Assembly (NCBI RefSeq): GCF_000178995.1
Contig: NZ_ADVZ01000001.1
Location: forward strand, 1,646,001-1,710,000
Source: Afipia sp. 1NLS2
GTDB lineage: Bacteria; Pseudomonadota; Alphaproteobacteria; Rhizobiales; Xanthobacteraceae
Direction: 5' to 3'
DNA: 64,000 nucleotides
A program made the position numbers and the translations under genes. Positions 54,406 through 56,336 of the stretch are shown here, piece by piece. The notes under the pieces are model-generated. The model saw only the letters and a program-made list of their open reading frames with translations. It ran no database searches and had not been told where the DNA came from. Numbering within the stretch: position 1 is the first letter of the stretch; every line of letters begins with the position of its first letter.

Positions 54406-54864
54406 TCAGCGGCCCGTGGAGCCGAAACCGCCCGCGCCTCGCGCGCTCGGCGGAAGTTCCCCGACAGATTCAAACGCCACCTGTACCACCGGTGCCACCA
54501 CCATCTGCGCGATGCGTTCGCCGCGTCGGATCGTGAAGGTTCCGCGGCCATGATTGATGAGCGGCACGCCGATCTCACCGCGATAGTCGGCATCGATGGT
54601 GCCGGGCGAGTTCAGAACGGTCAGGCCATGTTTGATGGCAAGGCCGGAGCGCGGGCGCACCTGCGCTTCATAGCCCGCAGGCAGCGCGATCGCGAGACCC
54701 GTCGGAACCAACACGCGGTCGCCGGGCGCAAGCTGGATTGGCTTGTCTTCCGGCACGGCGGCAAGCAGATCGAGACCGGCGGCGTGCTCGGTCTGGTAGG
54801 CGGGCAAGGCAAGGCCTTCGCCATGCGGGAGTTGGGTGACGGCGATCCGCAGCGGCTCGGTCAT
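54406..54864 (-). CDS. dut: dUTP diphosphatase (trimeric dUTPase)
   Basis: 152 residues with all five trimeric dUTPase motifs: [10 protein letters not shown] (motif 1), [11 protein letters not shown] (2), [16 protein letters not shown] (3), [11 protein letters not shown] (4) and the flexible C-terminal [12 protein letters not shown] (5). It hydrolyses dUTP to dUMP, keeping uracil out of DNA and feeding thymidylate synthesis. The ATG at 54864 overlaps the coaBC stop as ATGA, an order (coaBC-dut) conserved in many bacteria. An apparent longer frame to 55716 is a different reading of coaBC DNA and not a fusion. Confidence 0.96.
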
Positions 54865-56282
54865 GGGCGTGCAATGCTTTCCGTGGGTGAGAATGTGTCC
54901 GCGATCCGGGCGATCAGGCGCGTTGCGACATCGTCCTTGCTCATGGCGGGCCAGCTTTCCGGCGCGGCCCGGTCCTTCATGAAAATCTGTACAGCGTTGC
55001 TGTCGCCGCCCATGATACCGGTTGCGGGTGACACGTCGTTGGCGACGATCCAGTCGCAGCCTTTGCGCGCGAGTTTCGCAGCGGCGTTTTCCGCGACATG
55101 CTCGGTCTCGGCGGCGAAGCCGATCACCAGTGGCGGCCGGTTCGATGTCCGTTTGGCGACGGTGGCGAGGATGTCGGGATTCTCCACCATTTCGAGCGGC
55201 GGCATGCCGTGCGCGGTTTTCTTGATCTTCTCCGCGCCTGCATTGGCAACGCGCCAGTCCGCGACGGCGGCGGCGAAGATCGCGATATCGGCGGGAAGAG
55301 CGCGTTCGACCTCGGCCAGCATGTCGCGTGCGGCTTCGACGCGAATGGTTTTGACGCCTTGCGGGTCGGGCAGGTTCACTGGGCCGGACACCAGCACCAC
55401 CTCCGCGCCAGCCTCTGCGGCTGCTGCGGCAATGGCGTAGCCCTGTTTGCCGGAGGATCGGTTGGCGATGTAGCGCACCGGGTCGATCGGCTCGTGCGTG
55501 GGCCCCGCCGTGATCAGCACGCGCCGGCCCTGCAAAATTGGAGGGTGCGCAGGCTGTAGCAAAGCGAGCGCGCGCGTCGCGATCTCCACGGGCTCTGCCA
55601 TCCGCCCAAGGCCTGCTTCGTTGGCTTCCGCCATCTCGCCGCGGTTCGGGCCAATGAGGATGCGGCCGTCGCGGACAAGCTGGGCGACATTGCGCTGTGT
55701 GGCGGCGTTGTTCCACATCGCCGGATTCATCGCGGGCGCGAGCAGCACCGGCTTGCTGGTTGCAAGCAGAATGGCGCTGGCGAGATCGTCGGCCAGGCCC
55801 TGCGCCATCTTCGCCATCAGGTCAGCAGTCGCGGGTGCGACCACTACGAGATCGCAATGGCGCGCGAGGCGAATGTGCCCGGCGTCGAACTCGCTCTCGG
55901 CATCGAACAAGTCAGTGTAGCAGCGATTGTTCGCGAGTGCGCTGGCACTCAATGCGGTGACGAATTTTTCCGCCGCCCGCGTCAGCACGCAACGGACCTC
56001 ACAGCCGCGCTCCTTCAGGCGGCGGATCAGGTCGAGCGCCTTGTAGGCGGCAATGCCGCCGCCGATGATGAGGGTGACGCGGTGGCGTGCCTGTCCCGGC
56101 TCAGGGTGCGGGACTTCCAAAACAGATGAGTTGGGTCGTACCGGCAAAGCCTCGCCTTGCGCCGCGGCTTGCCGCAGGATCACCCGAACCTCGTCCTCAA
56201 CCGAACGGCCGCTCTGGGCCGCGCGCAGCTTCAGCGCGGTCTTGATGTCGTCGTCGAGCTTGCGGACGGTGAGGCTGGCCAT
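54861..56282 (-). CDS. coaBC: CoaBC (PPCDC/PPCS) with an N-terminal FitA-like ribbon-helix-helix domain
   Basis: 473 residues. Residues about 68-250 are the flavin decarboxylase CoaC ([35 protein letters not shown]) and about 255-473 the CoaB ligase ([42 protein letters not shown]), the two steps from phosphopantothenate to 4'-phosphopantetheine. The first ~40 residues, [20 protein letters not shown] followed by [19 protein letters not shown], match FitA-type RHH antitoxins (N. gonorrhoeae FitA as I recall it starts MASVVIRNL), including Arg7 in the DNA-contacting strand. A linker of about 25 residues joins them. No ATG or GTG start with an SD lies inside the linker, so the fused form is the likely product. 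A palindrome precedes the gene. Confidence 0.9.
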
Positions 56283-56298
56283 GCGTCAGCCTAGCATG

Positions 56299-56336
56299 TG
56301 ATTGCAATGCAATCAAATTTTTCTAGAGTGATTGCA
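56299..56336 (-). promoter_or_regulatory. Palindrome and spaced inverted repeat in front of coaBC (putative RHH operator)
   Basis: Between ubiB and coaBC (55 bp) lies TGATTGCAATGCAATCA (56299-56315), a perfect 17-bp palindrome, and a third copy of the half-site TGATTGCA at 56329-56336. The inner pair gives TGCAATCA-N13-TGATTGCA. From memory the FitA operator half-sites are TGCTATCA/TGATAGCA, one base different. The site begins 16 bases upstream of the coaBC start codon, where an autorepressor would bind. Confidence 0.6.

Follow-up and report, generated by a model that had tools for sequence, protein, structure and literature searches.

MetJ, a ribbon-helix-helix (RHH) repressor tied to a cofactor pathway, acts on tandem arrays of 8-bp boxes, and the half site of the FitA antitoxin is TGCTATCA/TGATAGCA. 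To our knowledge, the transcriptional control of bacterial coenzyme A (CoA) synthesis has been little described, and we know of no FitA origin for the RHH of PutA. PutA is an RHH-enzyme autorepressor with a modular RHH (PMC5293562). In FitAB, the toxin makes no contact with DNA and promotes DNA binding by stabilising the complex (PMC3920265). As for CoaBC itself, PMC7794376 describes the mycobacterial enzyme as a dodecamer, whose CoaB is inhibited by CoA and its thioesters, probably at its active site, and the M. smegmatis protein as starting at CoaC (residues 1-179) without a DNA-binding domain.

The window (the whole stretch of 64,000 nucleotides that was analysed) encodes a CoaBC with an RHH at its N-terminus. 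Like PutA (PMC5293562), this fusion joins an N-terminal RHH to a flavin-dependent enzyme with several activities, and PutA represses its own gene; the likeness is drawn from descriptions rather than from a sequence comparison, and PutA is catabolic whereas RHH-CoaBC is anabolic. The working principle of RHH-CoaBC would resemble that of PutA. A further difference is that the RHH and the candidate operator are similar to a toxin-antitoxin module that relatives carry at the corresponding junction. The likeness to FitAB lies in a PF22513 RHH above cut-off, inverted-repeat boxes at the promoter and fitA-fitB at the junction in five relatives; CoaBC differs from it in having neither an adjoining toxin gene nor a toxin-binding tail, and in that its DNA-binding domain is joined to CoaBC. 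Because the toxin and the tail are gone, RHH-CoaBC is not a toxin-antitoxin pair. MetJ, again compared by description, is not fused to an enzyme, and mycobacterial and E. coli CoaBC share with the window's protein the full CoaC-CoaB architecture (best fold match 6tgv). By sequence, CoaBC shows two traits of a trigger enzyme, namely a predicted DNA-binding domain in the same polypeptide and, judged also by co-occurrence, a candidate operator at its own promoter. The gene and the parts of its product are the following.

54861-56282, minus strand: coaBC open reading frame, 473 aa, ATG start
56157-56282, minus strand: FitA-like ribbon-helix-helix domain, CoaBC residues 1-42 (PF22513, phmmer, predicted helices, Arg7/Thr5)
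56088-56156, minus strand: variable linker, CoaBC residues 43-65 (low conservation, low pLDDT)
55563-56087, minus strand: CoaC (phosphopantothenoylcysteine decarboxylase) domain, residues 66-240 (PF02441, TIGR00521, Foldseek 6tgv)
54903-55535, minus strand: CoaB (phosphopantothenate-cysteine ligase) domain, residues 250-460 (PF04127, TIGR00521, Foldseek 6tgv and 1u7z)

By profile, the N-terminal domain of CoaBC is a FitA-like RHH. Residues 2-40 matched PF22513 (FitA-like_RHH, Pfam) at 62.2 bits against a cut-off of 27 (E 4.3e-17), Arg7 is present, as the preliminary description of this DNA had it, and a phmmer search of solved chains at E <= 1 returned as sole matches the FitA of the FitAB entries 2h1o and 2bsq (E ~4e-4). 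That description had also read an in-frame fusion to a complete CoaC-CoaB, which was borne out by the NCBIfam model TIGR00521 (coaBC_dfp), matched by residues 66-460 over almost its full length (positions 3-391 of 392) at 405.9 bits against a cut-off of 219.7. The PAMN, NRSSGK and KIKK motifs of the predicted enzyme activities were all found in the sequence, and the top Foldseek match was M. smegmatis CoaBC (6tgv, E 7e-36). The 45-residue N-terminal piece searched alone matched no NCBIfam model at E <= 1. A marginal Pfam match of residues 32-97 to PF09664 (DUF2399) was taken as a chance match (25.7 bits against a cut-off of 23.4).

In the AlphaFold model (mean pLDDT 85.7, pTM 0.61) the enzyme core is present, helices are predicted at residues 11-24 and 28-42, and linker residues 44-63 are disordered (pLDDT <50). 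The RHH strand was left unassigned by DSSP in this single-chain model, residues 1-10 having a mean pLDDT of 66, with Arg7 kept. Among 33 aligned proteins, the mean frequency of the commonest residue was 0.36 in the linker against 0.84 in the RHH, 0.88 in CoaC and 0.84 in CoaB, and the C-terminal toxin-neutralising tail of an antitoxin was absent, its place being taken by the linker and then CoaC.

The candidate control elements in front of coaBC, and the gene behind it, are listed below.

56299-56306, no strand assigned: candidate operator box 1, TGATTGCA on the plus strand (palindrome, genome scan, co-occurrence)
56308-56315, no strand assigned: candidate operator box 2, TGCAATCA on the plus strand (9-bp centre spacing to box 1)
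56329-56336, no strand assigned: candidate operator box 3, TGATTGCA on the plus strand (half site 13 bases past box 2)
56311-56316, minus strand: -35-like TTGATT (read from sequence; overlaps operator box 2; mostly kept in the genus alignment)
56288-56293, minus strand: -10-like TAGGCT (17 bp from the -35-like hexamer; TGCTA in most relatives)
54406-54864, minus strand: dut-like gene (ATGA overlap with the coaBC stop codon)

A single A at 56307 parts boxes 1 and 2, and the palindrome TGATTGCA-A-TGCAATCA lies 16 bases from the coaBC ATG; the coordinates confirmed both this palindrome and the third half site after a 13-base spacer, which had been described before. Box 3 occupies the place of a second palindrome seen in 14 of the 29 genus genomes, where two palindromes, each differing from TGATNGCANTGCNATCA in no more than one letter, stand in tandem before coaBC; the window's gene has one palindrome and a lone octamer, not two palindromes.

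A terminator-like stem with a T run can be read on the plus strand at 56299-56315. We nevertheless regard it as highly improbable that the palindrome is a transcription terminator or a chance repeat, given that relatives, inspected by eye, retain the boxes and not the T run, that its direction would be antisense to coaBC, and that the site varies yet holds TGnnnnCA-n-TGnnnnCA. The terminator was rejected on the unconserved T run.

A promoter scan with an E. coli-type consensus did not find the coaBC hexamers, and their assignment is drawn solely from conservation. The RNA start of coaBC is predicted at or near the ATG; as the -10-like element lies very near the ATG, the window's coaBC transcript would be leaderless. 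Many relatives carry about 25 extra bases before the ATG with a possible ribosome site, unlike the window (56283-56293). The frame downstream of coaBC, which we take from its sequence to be Dut-like, probably shares one operon with it. The upstream frame, presumably UbiB-like (likewise named from sequence), ends 55 bp before coaBC, whose transcription may also start at a more distant upstream promoter.

Searching the window for the palindrome with up to three mismatches gave one match, which was exact (mean of 0.31 such matches in 100 shuffles). The 3.97-Mb genome contains one exact copy, none with one mismatch, one with two and seven with three, and the arrangement TGCAATCA-N(10-16)-TGATTGCA occurs in it a single time. 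These numbers bear on the reading that RHH-CoaBC chiefly represses other operons in trans and its own only secondarily. One-mismatch sites do occur elsewhere in many genus genomes, some of them letter-identical in two genomes, and a second site stands 3.7-4.3 kb upstream of coaBC in six genomes; however, the window's own genome has no further site at 0-1 mismatch, and we consider this reading very unlikely. The idea of a regulon was dropped on the same own-genome search (up to three mismatches, no other site at 0-1).

The second palindrome of these six genomes, among the 29 of the genus, is exact in four and has one mismatch in two (L053, at 2621-2637, and L054, L055, L056, L157 and L158), and it lies near the mutM 3' end in five of the six loci. 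In a mutM-anchored alignment, which anchored 9 of 12 loci (L053, L054 and L158 were left out) and in which L163 aligned badly, the flanks of the distant palindrome are conserved too, so that a role as a remote operator, with looping via a second site ~4 kb upstream, would be only a possibility. The window holds no second distant palindrome at up to three mismatches.

Turning to the distribution of the fusion, our set of relatives comprised 61 genomes: 29 of the genus, eight from other genera of the family and 24 from other families of the order, one each. Every one of the 29 genus genomes carries the RHH on CoaBC, with a frameshift separating it from the enzyme in G019. Five of the eight other genera carry it too (G030, G031, G033, G035 and G036); two members of the same family (G029 and G034) have a CoaBC without RHH, and the CoaBC match of G032 is only partial. 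In the 24 genomes from other families, the CoaBC matches start at the enzyme or cover part only. An even order-wide sample of 297 genomes gave matches running from residue 1-2 into CoaC in at least 16 genomes, distributed, among the matches listed, over 12 of the 14 genomes of the window's family, one in f16 and three in f24. Within the window's family, G110 is unfused and G321 is not among the matches listed, and three further f24 genomes (G134, G161 and G245) are fused by direct locus sequence. Named relatives bearing the fusion include Bradyrhizobium, Rhodopseudomonas, Mesorhizobium, Phyllobacterium and Zhengella, as well as a Nitratireductor MAG, Brucella thiophenivorans and a Bartonella; on the CoaBC tree, the window's protein clusters with Bradyrhizobium and Rhodopseudomonas (Nitrobacteraceae).

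The frameshift of G019 (locus L032), whether real or a sequencing error, falls in the linker and leaves an RHH of 53 codons followed by a stop, separate from CoaBC. The RHH would thereby be freed from the enzyme, which counts against an autorepressor.

We then compared the presence of the domain with that of the boxes in 152 loci with a CoaBC body, which gave 85 fused and 53 unfused loci after dropping L001 and L052-L056 (duplicate places), L072 (identical to L029) and L095 (cut by a contig end), and after excluding the frameshifted L032 and five fitAB loci from the unfused set. Loci were classed with an RHH model built from ten segments of the same loci, and the operator played no part in the classing. 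In fused loci, the 120 bp preceding the RHH start were scanned. In unfused loci, the strict and control patterns were sought in the 200 bp preceding the CoaC start, and the count with one change allowed used 120 bp.

TGnnnnCA-n-TGnnnnCA precedes 73 of the 85 fused genes and none of the 53 unfused ones, and when one of the eight fixed letters may differ, the box pair stands before 84/85 and 1/53, respectively. Of three control patterns, the first occurred in none of the 85 fused and none of the 53 unfused loci, the second in 3 and 0, and the third in 0 and 1. The pair recurs in the genus clade (strict 25/30; up to one change 30/30), in the other Nitrobacteraceae/Xanthobacteraceae (28/32; 31/32) and in the Rhizobiaceae-like clade (20/23; 23/23), while L058 is fused yet has no recognisable operator. 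An earlier, cruder pass had found the pair in 68 of 79 fused loci and 0 of 55 others, against a mean of 0.37 and a maximum of 3 of 79 with shuffled upstream regions. The commonest octamer of the operators was TGATTGCA (98/204), followed by TGATAGCA (26/204), which we take to be the FitA half site, in a tally that pools strands and counts overlapping pairs twice. The palindrome thus accompanies the domain in relatives, as had been put forward, with few independent contrasts: kinship inflates the counts, and only three tree-based contrasts on supported branches were available (median p 0.25), which is not significant alone. Averaged over 200 random pairings, 2.6 contrasts showed the operator changing along with the domain, and no pairing gave a contrast in the opposite direction.

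No genus genome (29 examined, 23 of which are at least 90% complete) had an above-cut-off match to PF22513 other than the CoaBC domain, a count in which a few candidates of G026 and G019 were left unscored; consequently, no other FitA-like protein would be available as partner of the operator. G016 holds a second PF22513 fragment below threshold (profile positions 17-36), with a palindrome, TGATTGCGGTGCAATCA, ~80 bp before it (G016:C1:2265165-2265320); the two are perhaps a decayed free-standing antitoxin.

Arg7 is found in 85/85 fused loci and Thr5 in 84/85. Mean dN/dS was 0.162 for the RHH and 0.158 for the enzyme (112 usable of 120 pairs, 16 loci), and pooled pN/pS was 0.232 and 0.250, respectively, in pairs with shared branches and strong divergence at synonymous sites (pooled pS 0.53-0.55). 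By these substitution ratios, purifying selection acts equally on the RHH and the enzyme. A start codon before the RHH, as assumed in the preliminary description, agrees with a frame that is open through the RHH in the 85 fused loci, with this purifying selection and with the position of the candidate operator directly before the ATG.

One might instead see the RHH as a remnant of an antitoxin fusion that is inert or has a structural use, for example as an oligomer aid, and assign the palindrome to another regulator. RHH domains dimerise, and most families sampled have listed matches starting at CoaC, so that in those families the enzyme manages without an RHH. We hold this explanation to be unlikely, considering that the operator tracks the domain (73/85 against 0/53), that Arg7 is invariant in 85 and that none of the 29 genomes has another PF22513 match above cut-off.

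The window has no space for a PIN toxin gene beside coaBC, which is flanked by the UbiB-like and Dut-like frames; the earlier statement that no toxin gene adjoins CoaBC therefore holds, and a toxin stands at the same place in five relatives. Likewise, no PIN match turned up in the 1.3 kb before any of the 79 loci that had been read as fused. In the five relatives, fitA-fitB frames lie between the UbiB-like gene and an unfused coaBC: L104 (Mesorhizobium sp. J18), L105 (M. xinjiangense), L115 (a Rhizobiaceae MAG), L137 and L144. Pfam identified PIN in all five toxins and PF22513 in both antitoxins submitted (L104 and L115), the other three antitoxins (L105, L137 and L144) being identified by the RHH model built from fused loci. 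TGnnnnCA boxes at 9-bp steps precede the first antitoxin-like gene in 5/5 of these loci, with one box pair at L104, two overlapping pairs at L105 and three pairs each at L115, L137 and L144. Ahead of fitA-fitB-coaBC, L137 has a lone RHH frame (69 codons, counted from its ATG), giving two antitoxin-like genes in a row.

Four free-standing FitA-like genes were inspected as well, and the box pair was found at L048, where a PIN-like frame follows, and not at L049, L050 or L051. The proposition that all FitA-like genes carry the box pair was rejected; at 1/4, the family as a whole does not share the pair.

These pairs at the junction support the suggestion, already made in the preliminary description, that CoaBC captured an antitoxin module. 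The fused protein of L094 (Mesorhizobium sp. B2-3-4), which is not one of the 33 aligned proteins, keeps a stretch resembling the tail of the L137 antitoxin (RHH and tail, BLASTP 42 of 101, E 6e-20 for a single comparison), and this tail piece is followed by sequence resembling the start of an unfused CoaBC. Such a layout is as expected from a toxin-removing deletion, and L094 would be an apparent intermediate. FitA homology and this remnant of a tail could also be taken to mean that RHH-CoaBC still acts as an antitoxin against a PIN toxin encoded elsewhere. With a variable linker in place of the toxin-binding tail in 33 aligned proteins and no other FitA-like gene in the genome, we give this almost no credence.

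On the tree of 123 CoaBC bodies, a quick search with SH-aLRT only and with a long-branch warning at L087 and L132, the fused state requires nine changes, at least five of them on supported branches, a count that does not separate gain from loss. The Nitrobacteraceae and part of the Xanthobacteraceae form one clade of 56 rows, of which 54 are fused; the others are the frameshifted G019 and L095, which is scored unfused although its N-terminus is merely cut by the contig. The Rhizobiaceae-like families are a patchwork of fused, toxin-antitoxin and plain coaBC loci.

Sequence evidence is available for the domain, the candidate operator, their co-occurrence, the purifying selection and the toxin-antitoxin pairs at the junction. 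On this basis, we think it probable that CoaBC is a trigger enzyme that would bind the boxes of its own promoter through a FitA-derived RHH and repress coaBC-dut. DNA binding, repression, tethering and the order of the evolutionary steps are what we infer, as follows. A fitA-fitB module would once have sat between ubiB and coaBC; the toxin and the antitoxin tail would then have been lost, and the DNA-binding domain of the antitoxin and its operator retained. The CoaBC oligomer would display RHH dimers, which would bind the TGnnnnCA boxes at their 9-bp spacing, the oligomeric enzyme taking the place of the toxin in tethering them. As the boxes overlie the -35-like element and the spacer of the putative coaBC-dut promoter, RNA polymerase would be blocked and the enzyme would limit its own synthesis.

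More tentatively, occupation of the CoaB site by CoA or acyl-CoA (or by CTP/phosphopantothenate) might alter the display of the RHH on the box array and so provide transcriptional feedback, an extension that we consider possible but rather doubtful. The oligomer may then bridge RHH dimers as the toxin did and, together with the site ~4 kb upstream, may loop the DNA.

If true, this would directly exemplify feedback at the gene level in the essential CoA pathway. The locus would further illustrate the domestication of an antitoxin, the toxin-antitoxin pair, the fused form and the apparent intermediate being preserved at one place across related bacteria. We found no account of an RHH-CoaBC fusion in the literature searched, whose scope left out most subscription journals and all bioRxiv preprints.

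Two minor observations concern the enzyme and the junction. The flap of E. coli CoaC has a catalytic Cys; the CoaC flap of the window (55599-55652, minus strand) is without the cysteine found at that spot in Ruegeria CoaBC (GPNEGDMACGESGPGRM), as are 10 of the 11 CoaBC loci compared, fused and unfused alike. At L111 (Microvirga pudoricolor), the 1 kb upstream of coaBC holds, directly before the gene, a PIN toxin together with an antitoxin of the Phd/YefM type. This pair represents a second, unrelated toxin-antitoxin type at the coaBC junction, and the site before coaBC may be a hot spot for such modules.
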